In this document: positions 10,108 through 18,201 of the stretch, one piece after another | Layout of the letters: each line of letters opens with the position of its first letter | Numbering within the stretch: the stretch's first letter is position 1 | Source of the DNA: a virus | Length of the DNA stretch: 27,375 bases | IMG/VR virus record: IMGVR_UViG_3300005518_000038 | Coordinates: 1 to 27,375 of that record | Strand: one strand, 5' to 3' | The notes under the pieces: generated by a model | What the model was told of the DNA's origin: nothing | Database searches by the model: none | What the model saw: only the letters and a program-made list of their open reading frames with translations | Program-made: the position numbers and the translations under genes

Positions 10108-10370
10108 CGCCGAAGCGGCGGCAGGGCTCCGGCCGCGCCGCCATCGACCACATCGCCCGCCAACTCACCGACGGCCTGTCCGAGCTGTCCCGCGTCCAGG
10201 CGTCGCAGGCCGCGGTCGCCGCCGCCAACGACCCCGACCGGCTCGACGCGCTGCTTGACCGCCTCACCGTCGACACGCTGACCGCCGTCGCCGAATCGGC
10301 CGGACGGGTCCACGACGCAGCGCAGCACGCCCTCCTACAACGCCACGCCACCGAAGGGGGCTCGCCATGA
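10104..10370 (+). CDS. Small helical hypothetical protein
   Basis: This 88-aa protein starts at GTG 10104, overlapping the previous stop. The N-terminus is basic (KRRQGSGR). The remainder is a long Ala-rich helical region (LSELSRVQASQAAVAAAN and a second helix around LTAVAESAGRVHDAAQ). No cysteines and no known motif are present. It is coupled to the HTH/zinc gene downstream. Confidence 0.72.
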   Translation: MTPKRRQGSGRAAIDHIARQLTDGLSELSRVQASQAAVAAANDPDRLDALLDRLTVDTLTAVAESAGRVHDAAQHALLQRHATEGGSP

Positions 10371-11245
10371 ACCCGCGACCATGCGCGTTCGACCACGTGC
10401 GCGGCGACGAACAGGTCATGGCCGCGCCCGGCCTGCTCGTCTGCCACGCCTGCAGCGACCAGTGCCGCAAGGCCGTCGACTACCTCGGCCAGCTGTACGC
10501 CGGGCTACAGGACGTCGACGAGCTCACCCCCGGCGGCAGCCCGGACGGCACCGGCACCCGCAGCGTGCCGGGCTCGAAGTCGCCGGCCGTCGACGCGCTG
10601 CTCGTCCACTCCGACCCGCGCTCGTACGCCCGCGTGGGCGAGCACCCGGCCGCGCTCGCCACCATGGCCAGCTGGGCGCGGTTCATCCGCGAGGAACGAT
10701 CCCTCGACACCCCTCGCCACAAGCTGCGCGACACCATCCCTGCCGGCCGGGTGTCGATGGATCGTGAGCTGCAGACGATCCGGTTCCACTGGGACTGGCT
10801 CATGGGCCACCAGCTGGTGCTGGCGTTCGCGCAGGCCGTGAACGAGATCATCGACGGCCTGGAGTACGTGCGGCGGATGGTCCCGCCGGCGATCCGGATC
10901 GGTAAGTGCCCGGTCGTCGTGGACGTCGAGCAGCTGCCCGACGGCGGTGAGCTGCCGCTTGCCTGCTCGACGATGCTGCGGGTGCGGCCGGGCGATACGG
11001 AGATCCGGTGTCGCGGCTGCCATACCGCGTGGCCGCGGGAGCAGTGGCACCTGCTCGGCGACCCGTGGGCGGACTACGCCCATCTTTCCGCTGAGCTGGG
11101 CGTCAAGGTCGGGACGCTCTGGTACTGGGCCAGGAAGGACCGGTGGGAGGTGGCCGGCACGAAGGCGCGGCGGCTGGTGCGGCGGGCGGACGCGCTGGCC
11201 TCGTACGAGCGGTACCGCGGTGCGCTGCTGGGTGAGGCAGGATGA
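10367..11245 (+). CDS. Zinc-ribbon and HTH protein, probable DNA-binding regulator
   Basis: This 292-aa protein starts at ATG 10367. An N-terminal Cys cluster (C6, C26, C29, C33) looks like a zinc site. Residues 100-175 are helical. C181, C200, C215 and C218 form a zinc ribbon. Residues about 238-262 (LSAELGVKVGTLWYWARKDR) fit a helix-turn-helix whose recognition helix carries LWYWARK, followed by a basic helix. Actinophages commonly carry a protein of this layout near the end of the early region, annotated as HTH DNA-binding. It could control early-late switching, since it sits next to the control region. Targets are unknown. Confidence 0.8.
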   Translation: MNPRPCAFDHVRGDEQVMAAPGLLVCHACSDQCRKAVDYLGQLYAGLQDVDELTPGGSPDGTGTRSVPGSKSPAVDALLVHSDPRSYARVGEHPAALATMASWARFIREERSLDTPRHKLRDTIPAGRVSMDRELQTIRFHWDWLMGHQLVLAFAQAVNEIIDGLEYVRRMVPPAIRIGKCPVVVDVEQLPDGGELPLACSTMLRVRPGDTEIRCRGCHTAWPREQWHLLGDPWADYAHLSAELGVKVGTLWYWARKDRWEVAGTKARRLVRRADALASYERYRGALLGEAG

Positions 11246-12165: not shown

Positions 12166-12519
12166 TTAGGCGGCGGCGAGCTGGGCGGCGGCGAGGTGGT
12201 AGCAGGCGCGGCCGTTCTGCCCGGCCTTGCAGGTGCACGAGGCGTGCGCGGTGGACACCTCGTAGCGGTCGACGCCGTTCGAGGCGACGGCCAGAAAGGT
12301 GGTGCGGTCGACGCGGGCGATGCCGCCGTCGCGGAGCAGCTCCTTGACCTTCTCGACCTGGACGTCGGTGTACGCGGCGAGGAGGAGCTTGGCGGCCTCT
12401 TCCTGGCGGTGGAGGCGGTGGCAGTGGCGGCCATAGCCGCGGGCGATCGAGTCGGCCGAGCGGAGCGTGCGGTGGCAGCGCTTGCACTGGGGTTTCGGGG
12501 TGGCCGTCTCGGTTTCCAT
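12166..12519 (-). CDS. DUF6011 plus SWIM zinc-finger protein (minus-strand cassette, first gene)
   Basis: This 117-aa protein is read leftwards from ATG 12519. Residues 12-33 (CKRCHRTLRSADSIARGYGR and following C; C12, C15, C33) match the DUF6011 pattern also seen at 4432-4983. Residues 86-109 are a SWIM-type zinc finger: C95, C97, C106, H108 in CTCKAGQNGRACYH, preceded by a YEVSTAHA strand. SWIM fingers occur in DNA-, RNA- or protein-binding contexts. The pair of domains is seen in some actinophage and prophage proteins. No Shine-Dalgarno precedes the start. A perfect palindrome (12523-12537) does, so its expression is probably regulated. Confidence 0.85.
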   Translation of the reverse strand: METETATPKPQCKRCHRTLRSADSIARGYGRHCHRLHRQEEAAKLLLAAYTDVQVEKVKELLRDGGIARVDRTTFLAVASNGVDRYEVSTAHASCTCKAGQNGRACYHLAAAQLAAA

Positions 12520-12679: not shown

Positions 12680-12711
12680 AAGCCCCGGTGAGCCCCGCTC
12701 CCGGGGCTTTT
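12680..12711 (+). terminator. Intrinsic terminator upstream of the late operon
   Basis: AAGCCCCGG (12680-12688) pairs perfectly with CCGGGGCTT (12701-12709), with a 12-base loop and a T-run TTTT at 12708-12711. It is the clearest Rho-independent terminator in the window. It lies 29 bases before the first late gene. A smaller hairpin, GCAGT/ACTGC (12663-12667 with 12674-12678), precedes it. Together they could act as an attenuator or end a short RNA. Confidence 0.75.
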
Positions 12712-12739
12712 CTCATGCCCACGGGAGGAGCGCCCCGCC

Positions 12740-13057
12740 ATGTCCGCCTGGTCCAACCGGCACCCCAGCGTCCGCCACTTCGAGCCACTGTTCGGCTACG
12801 AGCACCTGCCGCCGGCACTGCGCGAGGTCTCGCAGGGCTTCGCCTTGCTGGCCGAGACGCTGCTCGTCCAGCTGCCCGACGACAGCCCCGAGGTGGCCGC
12901 CTGCCTCCGCAAGCTCATCGAGGCCAAGGACTGCGCCGTCCGCGCCCGCGTCGCCGAGCTGCACCGCGCGAACACCTCCGACCTCGACGGCTCCGTCAAG
13001 ACCGCCGACGAGGTCCTCAAGGACGCCGGCCACACCCCGCCCGGGGAAACCCGATGA
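12740..13057 (+). CDS. Acb2/Tad1-hairpin-like protein, candidate anti-CBASS cyclic-nucleotide sponge
   Basis: This 105-aa protein starts at ATG 12740 after GGGAGGAG (12723-12730). Residues 8-74 resemble the family known as Acb2/Tad1 hairpin domain proteins. The visible pattern is HPSVRHFEP...HLPP, a helix with LREVSQGFALLAETLL, then LPDDSPE, then LRKLIEAKDCAVRARV. This parallels the family's helix-LPxxxE-helix with '.LeEA...A.aA..R'. Acb2 of other phages binds cyclic di- and trinucleotides and blocks CBASS. The 30-residue C-terminal tail is acidic and polar. The assignment is from memory of the family pattern, and binding activity is inference. Confidence 0.72.
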   Translation: MSAWSNRHPSVRHFEPLFGYEHLPPALREVSQGFALLAETLLVQLPDDSPEVAACLRKLIEAKDCAVRARVAELHRANTSDLDGSVKTADEVLKDAGHTPPGETR

Positions 13058-13545
13058 TCGAGATCACCGTCAAGCTCACCGCCGAAGCGGGCACCTTCCA
13101 GCCGACCAGCTTCACCGAGTACATCGGCCGCCTCGTCAACGTCACCGGCCTCGACCAGGCCCTTCACCACGTCCTCGTCGGCGTCGAGAACACCGAAGAC
13201 GGCACCGCGTCGACGCTGAAGGTCCAGACCCACTCCGAGGTGGACGCCGACCTGACGGCGAACATGTCGGTTCGGTGGGACACCCCCACCGCCGAAGTCC
13301 GCGCCTACGTCGGCGACGAGCTGCTCGTCACCGCCCGCATGGACGCGCCGCTGCAGCCCGGCCAGACCGTCCGCGTCGGCGAGAAGCTCTACACCGTCAC
13401 CGACGTCAGCAACCCCGCCCGCCTGCCGGACGGCACCATGGACGGCCCGGACTACCAGCGCGCCGACCTCGTCGAGACCGATGCCCCGACCTCGGTCGCC
13501 GGCCTCGGCGTGTCGCCGTTCGGCGCTCTGGTGCTCGGCGGCTGA
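13054..13545 (+). CDS. Hypothetical beta-rich protein between Acb2-like gene and terminase
   Basis: This 163-aa protein starts at ATG 13054, overlapping the Acb2-like stop. It is beta-rich and acidic without cysteines: MIEITVKLTAEAG, HHVLVGVENTED, STLKVQTHSEVD, VRAYVGDELLVTARMD, QTVRVGEKLYTVTDV. The alternation of strands and turns suggests one or two small beta-sandwich or OB-like domains. No family is recognised. Tight coupling to the gene before it suggests they are made together. It could be a packaging or head-associated protein, or an accessory protein. Confidence 0.75.
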   Translation: MIEITVKLTAEAGTFQPTSFTEYIGRLVNVTGLDQALHHVLVGVENTEDGTASTLKVQTHSEVDADLTANMSVRWDTPTAEVRAYVGDELLVTARMDAPLQPGQTVRVGEKLYTVTDVSNPARLPDGTMDGPDYQRADLVETDAPTSVAGLGVSPFGALVLGG

Positions 13546-13547
13546 CC

Positions 13548-14234
13548 GTGACCCGCAAGAAGTGCCGGGGCCACAACAAGGTCGGCAAGCCGTGCGGGAA
13601 CTGGCCGATCCGCGGCGGCACCGTCTGCACCGTCCACGGCGGCAAGGCCCCGCGCGTCGCCAAGAAGGCCCTCGTCCGGGCCGAACTGGCAGCGTGGGGG
13701 CTCGGCGATTCCAAGGTCGACCCGGGCGAGGTGCTACTCCGGCTCGTGTCGCAGTCGGCCGCGCGCGTCGAGCTCTACGGCCAGCTGCTGCGCGACGCCT
13801 ACGAGGCCGCCGAGCGGCTCAAGCAGGCGCATGAGGTCGAGTACCTCATCGAGGTGGCCGAGGCCGACGACTTCGTGCAGGAGCGCGCCGCGGTGCAGGT
13901 AGCCCGCGACGACCTCCGCAAGATCTTCGCCACCGGCGGAGTAGCCGCGCTGATCGGCAACACCTACGGCGACTCCAAGACCGGCGGGATCTACGCCACC
14001 GGCGAAGCCATCCGCGGCCTGGCCAAACTCGAGGCCGAGGAACGCACCCGGTGCGCGGACTTCGCCATGAAAGCCGTCAAGGCCGGGCTCGCCGAGCGAG
14101 AGGTCCGCCTGGCCGAACAGCAGGCCGAGATGGTCCTCAAGGCCCTTGACGCCGCCCTTGACGCCGCCGGTGTTCCGGTGGCCGACCGCGGCCCGGCGAA
14201 GCTGGCCGCCGCCCGGCACCTCAAGGCGGTGTAG
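13548..14234 (+). CDS. Putative terminase small subunit
   Basis: This 228-aa protein starts at GTG 13548, two bases after the previous stop. The N-terminus (residues about 6-32) has a Cys/His pattern CRGHNKVGKPCGNWPIRGG then TVCTVHGG, which is common at the N-terminus of actinophage small-terminase-like proteins. The rest is almost entirely helical with long charged helices, as expected of a ring-forming DNA-recognition subunit. Position directly before the large terminase supports the role. There is no clear HTH match, so the assignment rests on position and the N-terminal motif. Confidence 0.7.
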   Translation: MTRKKCRGHNKVGKPCGNWPIRGGTVCTVHGGKAPRVAKKALVRAELAAWGLGDSKVDPGEVLLRLVSQSAARVELYGQLLRDAYEAAERLKQAHEVEYLIEVAEADDFVQERAAVQVARDDLRKIFATGGVAALIGNTYGDSKTGGIYATGEAIRGLAKLEAEERTRCADFAMKAVKAGLAEREVRLAEQQAEMVLKALDAALDAAGVPVADRGPAKLAAARHLKAV

Positions 14235-14248
14235 CCGAGCGGGGGTGA

Positions 14249-15700
14249 GTGGTGGATGCGCTCGCCCTCGCTGCCGACCGGCTCGAAGCCGAAGCCGCGG
14301 CCCTCGAAAACCCCGCACCGGAGCAGACCCTCGGCCAGTTCACCCAGCAGCTCGACCCCGGCACCGTCCAGACGCCGGCGCTCGAGCTGCTCGACGAGAC
14401 CCTGCGGAAGGTCCGCGACGGCGAGCTGACCCGCGTCATCTGGTCGATGCCCCCGCAAGAGGGCAAGTCCGAACGGGTGGCCCGCCGGTTTCCGACGTGG
14501 ATGCTCAAGCACAACCCCGACCTGCGCATCGCCATCGCGTCGTACGAACTCGGGTTGGCGCGCCGTTCAGGCCGGCGGATCCGCAACGACCTCGCCGAGC
14601 ATCCCGAGCTCGGGCTCACCGTCAAGGGCGACACCAGCGCCGCGCACGAGTGGGAGCTCGAGGGCCACATCGGCGGCGTTTACTCCGTCGGCATCGGGGG
14701 CGCCCTGACCGGCCGCCCGGTGGACGTGATGATCATCGACGACCCGGTCAAGGACCGCGCACAGGCGGACTCCGAGACGTACCGCGAGGGCGCGTGGGAC
14801 TGGTGGACCGACGTCGCCCGCACCCGGTTGGCGCCGGGTGCGGTGGTCGTGCTGATCATGACCCGTTGGCACGAGGACGACCTCGCCGGCCGCCTCATCG
14901 CCGGTGGCGGCTGGACCGAGATCAACATCCCGGCGCAGGCCGACCACCGCCCCGAAGCCGGCCAGGTCGACCCGATCGGCCGCGAGGTCGGCGAGTACCT
15001 CGAGTCCGCGCGCGGCCGCACGCCCGTGGACTGGAAGCAGATCGAGGCCGACGTCCGGCCACGCACCTGGAACGCGCTCTACCAGGGGCGTCCGGCACCG
15101 TCCGACGGGTTCACGCTCAAGCGCGGATGGTGGCGCTACTACCGCGCCCCCATGGCACGCCAGCAGGCCGACGGCACGATGCGCGCCGCCGACTTCGACC
15201 AGCTCATCCAGTCCTGGGACATGGCGTTCAAGGACACCAAGGGCACGGACTACGTCGTCGGCCAGGTCTGGGGCATCCGGGGCGCGAACGCCTACCTGCT
15301 CGACCAGGTCCGCGACCGGCTCGACTTCCCATCGACGTGCCAGGCCGTGAAGAACCTGACCATCAAGTGGCCCCAGGCACACGCCAAGCTCGTCGAGGAG
15401 AAGGCGAACGGCGCCGCAGTGATCAGCCAGCTCCACGCCACCGTCGGCGGCCTCATCCCGATCATCCCGACGGAGTCCAAAGAGGCCCGTGCGTCGGCAG
15501 TGTCGACGTACGCCGAGTCCGGGAACGTCTACCTGCCCGACCCCGAACTCGCCCCCTGGGTGCCCGCGCTCGTCGACGAGGCCGCCGCGTTCCCGGCCGG
15601 CACCCATGACGACCAGGTCGACGCGCTCTCGCAGGCGCTGTCGCGCCTGCTGCTCTCCGACTCCGCCGCGGCCCGGTTCTTCGGCGCCCTCAACAAGTGA
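14249..15700 (+). CDS. terL: Terminase large subunit (ATPase-nuclease DNA-packaging motor)
   Basis: This 483-aa protein has the two-domain layout of TerL. The ATPase half has an atypical Walker A (SMPPQEGKSE, residues 66-75), Walker B VMIIDDP (160-166) and the coupling motif MTRWHEDDLAGRL (204-216). The RNase-H-fold nuclease half has SWDMAF (D324), VEEKANG (E383/E384) and THDDQVDAL (D454, D455, D458). Length is normal. It drives genome packaging through the portal and cuts the concatemer. Two adjacent GTG codons (14249 and 14252) could start it. The second is better spaced from GGGGG at 14241. Only weak SD-like sequence is present. Confidence 0.95.
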   Translation: MVDALALAADRLEAEAAALENPAPEQTLGQFTQQLDPGTVQTPALELLDETLRKVRDGELTRVIWSMPPQEGKSERVARRFPTWMLKHNPDLRIAIASYELGLARRSGRRIRNDLAEHPELGLTVKGDTSAAHEWELEGHIGGVYSVGIGGALTGRPVDVMIIDDPVKDRAQADSETYREGAWDWWTDVARTRLAPGAVVVLIMTRWHEDDLAGRLIAGGGWTEINIPAQADHRPEAGQVDPIGREVGEYLESARGRTPVDWKQIEADVRPRTWNALYQGRPAPSDGFTLKRGWWRYYRAPMARQQADGTMRAADFDQLIQSWDMAFKDTKGTDYVVGQVWGIRGANAYLLDQVRDRLDFPSTCQAVKNLTIKWPQAHAKLVEEKANGAAVISQLHATVGGLIPIIPTESKEARASAVSTYAESGNVYLPDPELAPWVPALVDEAAAFPAGTHDDQVDALSQALSRLLLSDSAAARFFGALNK

Positions 15701-15711
15701 AGGGAGTCACC

Positions 15712-18201
15712 GTGGCCCGCGCACGTGGGATCCGCCGGCCGCTGGCCGGTCACCGACCGGTCACCAAGGCCGCCCTCCCGGGCGGAATCCAGCTGCCGTC
15801 CGGCGCGCAGACGTCGAGCCTCTCCCCGCAGATCGCCGCACTGCAGCAGCAGACCGGGCAGGGCCAGGCGGGCGCCGTCGCGGTAGCCGAGCCGCTGCCG
15901 CGCTCGATGTCCGACTTCATCGCCGCGTTCGGCCCCGGCGTCCCGCTCGTCCCCGCCCCGCTCAACGACGTGCGGCCGGACACCGGCCAGCAGGACCCGC
16001 GCCGCTACGCCTACCCCGTCAGCTGGAACCTCTCCCGGGACATGCAGCGCCACACCCCGTGGTCGCTGCTGATCCAGGCCGCGGACAAGGTCGACATCAT
16101 CCGGCGTTGCATCGAGGTCCGTAAGGACGAGCAGACCCAGCAGGACTGGGACTTCACCCTCACCAAGCGGGCCCTCGAGGCGGCCGGGGCGAACACGCCC
16201 GCGGAGAAGGCCGCGCTGCGGGAGAAGTACTCCGCGAAGATCCGGGAGCTGGTCGAGTGGTGGCAGACCCCCGACAAGACCAACGGCCTCGAGTTCGAGA
16301 CCTGGCTGTCGATGGCGTTGGAGGAGCATTTCGTCCTCGACGCGCTGGCGATCTACCCGCGGCTGACCTACGGCGGCGACCTCGCGTCCCTCGAGGTTTT
16401 GGACGGGTCGACGATCAAGCCGCTGCTCGACGCCCGCGGCAACCGCCCGCCCGCGCCCGCGCCCGCGTTTCAGCAGTGGCTGTACGGGTTTCCCCGCGGC
16501 GAGTACACCGACCTCGGGCCGGCGGACAGCTGGGAGGGTGACGCCGGGTCGCTGATCTACGCGGTCAAGACCGCGCGGACCCGGTCGCCGTACGGGCTGT
16601 CCACGGTGGAGCAGGCGCTCGCGTCGGCGGACCTGTGGATGCACCGCCAGCAGTGGATGCGGTCGGAGTACACCGAGGGCACGCTCCCGACAACATGGCT
16701 CACCGTCGACCAGGCCGCCGGAAACATGACCCCGGAGCAGCTGCGCGCCTGGGAGACCGTGCTCAACGAGTTCTACCGCGGCAGCGCCACCGACCGGCAT
16801 GGCCTGCACCTGCTCCCGCAGGGTGTGTCGCCGGTCGACACGCAGGACGTGGCCGAGCGGTACAAGCCCGACTACGACGAGTTCCTCGTCAAGCTCGTGA
16901 TCTCGCACTTCAACGTGGACCCGATGGAGATCGGGTTCGCGCCGAAGGGCGGGCTCGGCGGCAAGGGGTTCTCCGAGGGGCAGCAGGACACGAAGTACCG
17001 GCAGGCGATCAAGCCGACGAACACGTTCCTGTCGAACGTCATCAACCAGATCTCCCGGCGGTTCCTCGGGATGCCGGCGGAGCTGACGCATCAGTTCCTC
17101 GGCATGGAGCAGGAGGACGAGAAGTCGGCTGACGAGGTCGCCGCGGCCCGGACGTCGTCGGGGCGGTCGACGTTCAACGAGGACCGCGACCGGCAGGGGA
17201 TGCCGCGGTACGACGGGGAATGGGCGGACAAGCCGTTCATCGTCACCGCGTCCGGGCCGGTGTGGCTCGACGACGCCTACGAGAAGTCGCTCGAGCCGCC
17301 GGAGCCAGTCCCCGCGCCGTTGGCTGCGCACGTCAATCCGCAGGCCCAGGGCCAGAAGCCGGACGAAGGGCCCGGGAATATACCGGCCGACGAAGAGGCG
17401 GACGAGGGAGCCGAGGAGGACACCAAGAAGGCGGTCGGCGAGCTGGTCGCGTTCGGACGCTTCCTCGCCAAGCGCAGCAAGGCCACCCGGCCGTTCGCGT
17501 TCGAGCACCTCGACAAGGCCGTCGGTGACGTCCTCAACGCCACTGCGACGGTAGATCCAGGGTGGGCTGCCGAGCAGGCCGGCGAGATCGTCAAGGTCGG
17601 CCCGAAGGGCTACGAGCACGGCTGGGTGTACGTCGGCGGGCCCGGCCTGCCGAAGAAGCCCGGCGGCAAGCACACTCCGGTCGCGCCGACCGAGTCCGAC
17701 AAGAAGGGCGTCAGGTCGGCGAAGCTGACCCCAGGCGCCCGGATCACGTACGACATCGCGCGGCATCAGGGCAAGTCCCATGAGGACGCGCTCGCCGACG
17801 CCAAGGCGCACGACGTCGTGATCCGGGAAGCGAAGCGGAAGCTGGCCGAGGACTCCCCGGGAGCCCGCGCGAAGAAGCCGAGCACCTTCCAGGACGACAA
17901 GGGCCGGAAGGTCACCCTGACCGCTGCGGACAAGAAGGCGGTCAGGGACGCGAAGCTCAAGCCCGCGCAGGCGATGCATTACCAGTCGCTGCGGTTCGAG
18001 GGGATGAGCCACGAACAGGCCCTGGCGAACGCGAAGGCGGCGCGCGTGGCCAAGGCCGACGGCGGTGGTGCCGGCGCGCGAGGCGAAGCTCCGGCAGGCC
18101 GAGCAGGGCTTGCTGGATCACGCGCGGGTGGTCACCCAGCACAAGGCGTCGATCGGGCGGGCTTTACGTGGGCTGATCACGACCCCTACCCAGCTCGCTG
18201 A
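15712..18201 (+). CDS. Portal protein with a long repeat-bearing C-terminal extension
   Basis: This 829-aa protein starts at GTG 15712 with ribosome binding site AAGGGAG (15700-15706). An in-frame GTG at 15697 overlaps terL but lacks a site. Residues about 70-560 are the portal core (RCIEVRKDEQTQQDWDF; GLHLLPQGVSP; EIGFAPKGGLGGKGFSEGQQ), a dodecameric ring in related phages. An acidic linker follows, then VGPKGYEHGWVYVG (about 629-642) and two 44-residue repeats (660-703 and 737-780). The last about 45 residues, overlapping the next gene, have the Gly/Ala/Arg composition of out-of-frame sequence, so the true end may differ. Length is well above the usual 450-550. Confidence 0.85.
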   Translation: MARARGIRRPLAGHRPVTKAALPGGIQLPSGAQTSSLSPQIAALQQQTGQGQAGAVAVAEPLPRSMSDFIAAFGPGVPLVPAPLNDVRPDTGQQDPRRYAYPVSWNLSRDMQRHTPWSLLIQAADKVDIIRRCIEVRKDEQTQQDWDFTLTKRALEAAGANTPAEKAALREKYSAKIRELVEWWQTPDKTNGLEFETWLSMALEEHFVLDALAIYPRLTYGGDLASLEVLDGSTIKPLLDARGNRPPAPAPAFQQWLYGFPRGEYTDLGPADSWEGDAGSLIYAVKTARTRSPYGLSTVEQALASADLWMHRQQWMRSEYTEGTLPTTWLTVDQAAGNMTPEQLRAWETVLNEFYRGSATDRHGLHLLPQGVSPVDTQDVAERYKPDYDEFLVKLVISHFNVDPMEIGFAPKGGLGGKGFSEGQQDTKYRQAIKPTNTFLSNVINQISRRFLGMPAELTHQFLGMEQEDEKSADEVAAARTSSGRSTFNEDRDRQGMPRYDGEWADKPFIVTASGPVWLDDAYEKSLEPPEPVPAPLAAHVNPQAQGQKPDEGPGNIPADEEADEGAEEDTKKAVGELVAFGRFLAKRSKATRPFAFEHLDKAVGDVLNATATVDPGWAAEQAGEIVKVGPKGYEHGWVYVGGPGLPKKPGGKHTPVAPTESDKKGVRSAKLTPGARITYDIARHQGKSHEDALADAKAHDVVIREAKRKLAEDSPGARAKKPSTFQDDKGRKVTLTAADKKAVRDAKLKPAQAMHYQSLRFEGMSHEQALANAKAARVAKADGGGAGARGEAPAGRAGLAGSRAGGHPAQGVDRAGFTWADHDPYPAR

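Follow-up and report, generated by a model that had tools for sequence, protein, structure and literature searches.

Acb2 and Tad1 are tiny phage proteins that bind bacterial immune signals and thereby defeat signalling defences, and Panoptes is a bacterial guard against such phage sponges. Acb2 forms a hexamer, binds cyclic di- or trinucleotides, and blocks CBASS; co-expression of T4 Acb2 with the Panoptes operon OptSE is toxic. Cyclic-dinucleotide binding by T4 Acb2 requires Tyr8 and involves stacking of Phe82 on the ligand (PMC12657218); Tad1 carries a beta-sheet at its N-terminus (PMC12043709). T4 Acb2 (Vs.4) matches the Pfam model PF24729 (E 7e-20), and Pfam counts it in the same domain as a group of viral proteins that we refer to as PF24729-type. 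We assigned fetched viral sequences to this group by 63-78% identity to a probe that is a self-written consensus-like sequence (97 bits against PF24729), and our conclusions are drawn from the real viral sequences and from PHROG matches. Here, we analyzed a window that is the whole 27,375-base virus record and find it well supported that a gene for a 105-aa protein in this window represents a divergent branch of the Acb2/Tad1 helical-hairpin superfamily. The branch extends a known superfamily and is not categorically new; as far as the databases and literature searched show, it carries no assigned function, and our literature search found no papers on recently named sponge families.

The gene and its genomic setting

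An open frame with a Shine-Dalgarno-like sequence occupies exactly the coordinates at which the sequence-only reading had placed a 105-aa protein. The features of this region are as follows:

12680..12712, (+): GC-rich hairpin followed by a T-rich tract, ~30 nt 5' of the gene for the 105-aa protein (sequence, folding)
12723..12730, (+): Shine-Dalgarno-like GGGAGGAG, about 9 nt 5' of the ATG (read from the sequence)
12740..13057, (+): CDS for the 105-aa protein of the phrog_5120/phrog_1761 family (ORF list, PHROGs, tblastn)
13054..13545, (+): second gene of the operon, encoding a 163-aa protein that matches no known family (Pfam-A and PHROGs searches)
13548..14234, (+): phrog_3678 protein of 228 aa, directly 5' of terL (PHROGs)
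14249..15700, (+): terminase large subunit (Terminase_6C, E 2.6e-17; phrog_38, E 8.4e-105)
15697..18201, (+): portal (Pfam-A and PHROGs searches)

The frame is intact from its ATG at 12740 and shares an ATGA overlap with the next gene at 13054-13057. It leads a rightward run that continues through the genes starting at 13054 and 13548 to terL and the portal gene, and the earlier placement of the gene at the head of the late operon, beside packaging genes, therefore holds. Judged by its position, the 228-aa phrog_3678 protein is possibly the small terminase. The portal-like protein has a length of 834 aa and contains two similar repeats in its C-terminal part (KLTPGARITYDIARHQGKSHEDALADAKAH and KLKPAQAMHYQSLRFEGMSHEQALANAKAA). 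The phage records nearest to the terminase DNA of the window are mostly from actinophages, and Microcystis phage MinS1 ranks first.

The hairpin at 12680..12712 is terminator- or leader-like; it was not called by the terminator scan, and the fold of the 121 nt that contain it has a z-score of only -1.26. It lies at a divergent junction between the rightward operon and a leftward gene (12166-12519, (-)) encoding a 117-aa protein that matches DUF6011 (E 4.8e-9) and a SWIM zinc finger. Further upstream, at 10367-11245, a 292-aa protein has a zinc-ribbon-like and HTH-like C-terminus; its weak match to mad1 in PADLOC (E 0.0022, residues 232-275) probably reflects the HTH alone.

The protein family and its variants

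The 105-aa protein matches phrog_5120 (E 1.6e-24) and phrog_1761 (E 7.3e-20), both listed in PHROGs as 'unknown function'. Using tblastn, we detected the family in 327 of 50,697 phage records, including phages of Vibrio, Erwinia, Mycobacterium, Acinetobacter, Gordonia, and others; some phages from these five genera have hosts that are grown in the laboratory. In almost all of these ~327 sequenced phages, the annotation of the family member is 'hypothetical protein'. A combined pattern and tblastn scan located the family in at least 580 viral-contig stretches, and a pattern scan located it in 125 bacterial-genome stretches whose titles cover about ten phyla. Because of the homologues in phage records and viral contigs and the match to phrog_5120, the ORF is a genuine gene and a chance ORF is excluded.

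The consensus of the family reads F-x-Y-x-H-L-P-x-x-L-Q-x-V-S-x-P-F-x-x-L-A-(x)6-L-P-D-x-P-E-L-T-A-G-L-R-K-L-L-E-A-K-D-C-x-V-R-A. The most conserved residues are H22, K58, E61, K63, D64, C65, and R68, although the invariance seen at residues 57-64 in part reflects how the wider locus set was fetched, namely with the pattern [RQ]KL[ILV]EAKD. Conserved residues outside this pattern are H22, which is invariant in all 94 members of a diverse set, F18, L23, E51, V67, and R68. In the 105-aa protein, the conserved motifs and the helices predicted by AlphaFold2 map as follows:

12797..12805, (+): Tyr20-Glu21-His22 of the N-terminal F-x-Y-x-H motif (HMM alignments, family alignment)
12812..12871, (+): helix 1 of the predicted hairpin, residues 25-44 (AlphaFold2)
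12887..12988, (+): helix 2 of the predicted hairpin, residues 50-83 (AlphaFold2)
12908..12946, (+): signature R57-K-L-I-E-A-K-D-C-A-V-R-A69 on helix 2 (family alignment)

The sequence-only reading had taken LPxxxPE and LRKLxEAKDxAVRA to be typical of Acb2/Tad1; both are instead hallmarks of the phrog_5120/phrog_1761 family. At the position of the signature, the PF24729-type group has S-R-E-K-S-L-A-x-T-K-L-E-E-A-V-M-W-A-N-A and T4 Acb2 has T-K-L-K-E-A-S-M-W-A-C-R-A. Even within the family the signature varies: in a roseophage variant (L265 4980-5201 and L305 1962-2189; ...LRSLWEAKNLAVFA), RKLLEAKDCxVRA is replaced by RSLWEAKNLAVFA, and not all signature residues are therefore essential.

The family domain also occurs in fusions. 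In loci L015, L140, L142, and L159, it is fused in frame behind a P-loop (GxxGSGKS) domain of ~75 residues, and among the loci fetched such fusions are found in jumbo phages only. A protein of Ochrobactrum phage vB_OspP_OH (A0A6G6XYP8), which is labelled as Anti-TRAP domain-containing and matches the family structurally in BFVD (prob 1.00), suggests another fusion of the family domain. A member in Acinetobacter phage Acba_16 (OQ101258, 13371-13535) is labelled 'occludin homology domain protein', which is probably an artefact of a weak match to Occludin_ELL. The short members include gp27 of Brevibacterium phage AGM2 and a protein of Acinetobacter phage 133, each of 64 aa.

Relationship to the Acb2/Tad1 superfamily

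For the 105-aa protein itself, a search against Pfam-A including PF24729 found nothing at E<=10, and a PF24729 search of the whole contig likewise gave no match. The sequence-only reading had proposed an HMM search against the hairpin family as its check, and taken literally for this single protein that check came out negative. The best family member scores 16.4 bits and misses the curated PF24729 cut-off of 27 bits. Among the 94 members, only six match PF24729 and seven match the unrelated helical family Occludin_ELL at E<=1, so that Pfam by itself does not rise above noise. Helical noise was also all that we obtained from phmmer with the 105-aa protein and from profiles A1 and A3 against PDB sequences, and from NCBIfam, where Dps-like matches (E 0.009) lie far under the cut-off. 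PADLOC returned nothing for the 105-aa protein, and the direct hhalign comparison of the family with T4 Acb2 was not significant (score 11.1).

Comparisons at the level of profiles revealed a significant and selective relationship of the family to the wider Acb2/Tad1 hairpin superfamily. In a scan of the 94 members against 38,880 PHROGs (E<=0.01), all members matched their own two families and the sole foreign PHROG was phrog_1454, which was matched by 27 members (best E 3.9e-5). Conversely, all 40 PF24729-type proteins matched phrog_1454, 10 matched phrog_1761, and 10 matched phrog_717, the PHROG of T4 Acb2; given 10 matches to either of the last two PHROGs, the link of the PF24729-type group to this family about equals its link to T4 Acb2. 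T4 Acb2 matches phrog_717 (E 2.3e-32) and phrog_1454 (E 7e-4). Across 46 phage contigs that carry a PF24729-type or T4-type acb2, an HMM of the family gave seven matches (E 0.002-0.025 per contig), perhaps representing three or four lineages and hence not fully independent, and all seven fall inside the roughly 195-bp PF24729 gene with none elsewhere in the 46 contigs. Alignment of the family profile with the PF24729-type profile by hhalign gave a score of 31.5 (P 2.9e-6), and the accepted pair of PF24729-type group and T4 Acb2 gave 31.7. By comparison, the best of 200 column shuffles scored 20.0, the reversed profile 9.4, and the best unrelated neighbour family 14.7 in a small null of 18 families. 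The best of 300 hydrophobicity-preserving shuffles, a stricter control than the neighbour families in which the pattern of hydrophobic and polar positions and the columns of Pro and Gly are retained, scored 25.0.

Individual sequences point in the same direction. PF24729 is the sole Pfam match of gp27 of Brevibacterium phage AGM2 (E 0.011, sub-threshold), and a genome scan with PF24729 lands on the gene for gp27 (E 8.5e-4). The contig of L110, which carries a family gene, also encodes a 77-aa PF24729-like protein (L310 930-1163 (-)) that reads ...IPNGEAKNQFVARLTEAKMWANTAL and, in TEAKMWANTAL, joins the E-A-K of the family to the M-W-A-N of the PF24729-type group. This is the one convincing PF24729-like gene among 50 family contigs surveyed for mutual exclusion, a count that comprises few cases and has no baseline. 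The earlier description of the protein as Acb2/Tad1-hairpin-like is thus borne out as distant homology of the family by PHROG, HMM, and hhalign comparisons, but not as a PF24729 match of the protein itself.

The predicted structure agrees with the two-helix pattern read from the sequence. AlphaFold2, supplied with 94 sequences, modelled the monomer with a mean pLDDT of 91.7 as short helices at residues 9-12 and 15-18 followed by the antiparallel helices 25-44 and 50-83, and a PF24729-type control was modelled with its elements in the same order, a short N-terminal helix and two antiparallel helices. In Foldseek searches of the PDB, the control found T4 Vs.4 (7uq2) first (prob 0.82), and the model of the 105-aa protein found neither Acb2 nor Tad1. 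In BFVD, past six family-like matches, the top of the rest was an Acb2/Tad1-hairpin protein of Providencia phage PS3 (prob 0.60, E 1.2). Taken as predictions, the structures are compatible with an Acb2/Tad1 relationship and are not decisive.

Proposed function and comparison with known systems

Judged from sequence, the 105-aa protein is most likely a divergent nucleotide sponge, possibly with a ligand other than that of Acb2. In HMM alignments, Tyr20 is the putative counterpart of Tyr8 of T4 Acb2, and 81 of the 94 members have an aromatic residue (Tyr, Phe, or Trp) at this position. The position of T4 Phe82 is not aromatic; it is Val71 in the 105-aa protein and Leu, Val, or Ile in 90 of 94 members, and PF24729-type members likewise have no aromatic residue there. 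We propose that, after the N-terminal aromatic segment, the two antiparallel helices assemble with those of other copies into a small oligomer, in which pockets between protomers would be built from the aromatic residue of that segment and, on helix 2, the invariant polar residues K58, E61, K63, D64, and R68, together with H22. A nucleotide-type immune signal from the host could be retained uncut in such pockets, and with the signal held the effector of a signalling defence would stay off. The ligand may be a cyclic oligonucleotide; another signal is conceivable because helix 2 carries other residues than in known Acb2. We assign a probability of about 0.5 to this full explanation, in which a branch of the superfamily forms an oligomer that captures a nucleotide signal against host defence.

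The location of the gene differs among phages: it can lie in the capsid/connector, tail/lysis, or early part of the genome, and it also occurs next to thymidylate synthase and, in a T4-like phage, with the topoisomerase and rIIA genes on either side. These unrelated positions indicate that it behaves as an accessory gene, which fits counter-defence without proving it. They also bear on the idea that the protein is a small packaging or capsid accessory protein of the terminase operon, for which one could cite the ATGA overlap with the next terminase/portal operon gene in the window and the location in several phages, with capsid genes on one side and connector genes on the other. Given that elsewhere the gene lies in early, nucleotide-metabolism, lysis, or rIIA-side regions and that so few of the phage records surveyed carry it, we consider a packaging role very improbable. 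Hardly more credible, and already disfavoured, is an ordinary amphipathic two-helix protein without shared ancestry that acquired Acb2/Tad1-like heptads by convergence. The missing Pfam match of the 105-aa protein, Pfam matches of the family that are as weak as its matches to unrelated helical families, and the lack of a fold match in the PDB all speak for such a protein; however, the PHROG matches are selective and reciprocal with no other foreign family, the family HMM finds PF24729 genes only, and pattern-preserving shuffles fail to reproduce the profile match.

A more serious contender, and quite possible, is that a hairpin oligomer of the same superfamily has been put to another use and binds a phage or host protein or a housekeeping nucleotide, with no counter-defence role. 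The top conserved residues of the family are unlike the MWAN of the PF24729-type group and Phe82 of T4, and the jumbo-phage fusions place the domain behind a small P-loop NTPase-like domain, an arrangement that is, to our knowledge, unlike any known sponge. Against this use stand the free variation of genome position among phages, which argues against a fixed partner, and the retention of an aromatic residue at the Tyr8 position in most members.

If nucleotide capture against host defence is the correct reading, the reach of counter-defence has been underestimated, with proteins of only 60-100 residues. A further-reaching version is more tentative, and we regard it as somewhat doubtful: a whole unrecognised sponge branch, spread over hundreds of phages and also occurring in bacterial genomes from about ten phyla, might catch an immune signal outside the known Acb2/Tad1 range in a new helix-2 pocket (H22, K58, E61, K63, D64, R68), coupled in jumbo phages to a P-loop NTPase-like domain. 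The suggestion that an actinophage version would stand in a little-studied host group is weaker than claimed because PF24729-type genes are already common in actinophages and some are annotated as Acb2, as in Mycobacterium and Microbacterium phages (PMC11953737, PMC13348362).

Among described groups, phrog_5120 and phrog_1761 are the family itself, and the phrog_1761 model adds an N-terminal P-loop-like domain that is missing in the 105-aa protein. Tad1 (PDB 7uav, 8kbg) and 'Acb2 homolog 43' (PDB 9ptq) share the C-terminal hairpin with the family, and a 41-residue stretch of 9ptq aligns to it (hhalign, Prob 60, P 8.8e-5); the antiparallel N-terminal sheet of Tad1 is missing in the 105-aa protein, whose AlphaFold2 model has no strands. 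T4 Acb2 (PDB 7uq2, phrog_717) resembles the family in having a short N-terminal segment and then two long antiparallel helices, and it is joined to the family through phrog_1454 and, by eye, through the likeness KLxEAxxxAxRA; it differs in that there is no direct significant match and that in the family the Tyr8 position is usually aromatic and the Phe82 position aliphatic. Compared with the PF24729-type group (phrog_1454), the family has neither the MWAN nor the S-R-E turn, has its own A-K-D-C-x-V-R, and remains under the Pfam cut-off; the two nevertheless share reciprocal profile matches and, at the same positions, the hairpin, an F-x-Y-H-like N-terminus, a Pro/Asp turn, a conserved Glu, and the K-L-x-E-A core.
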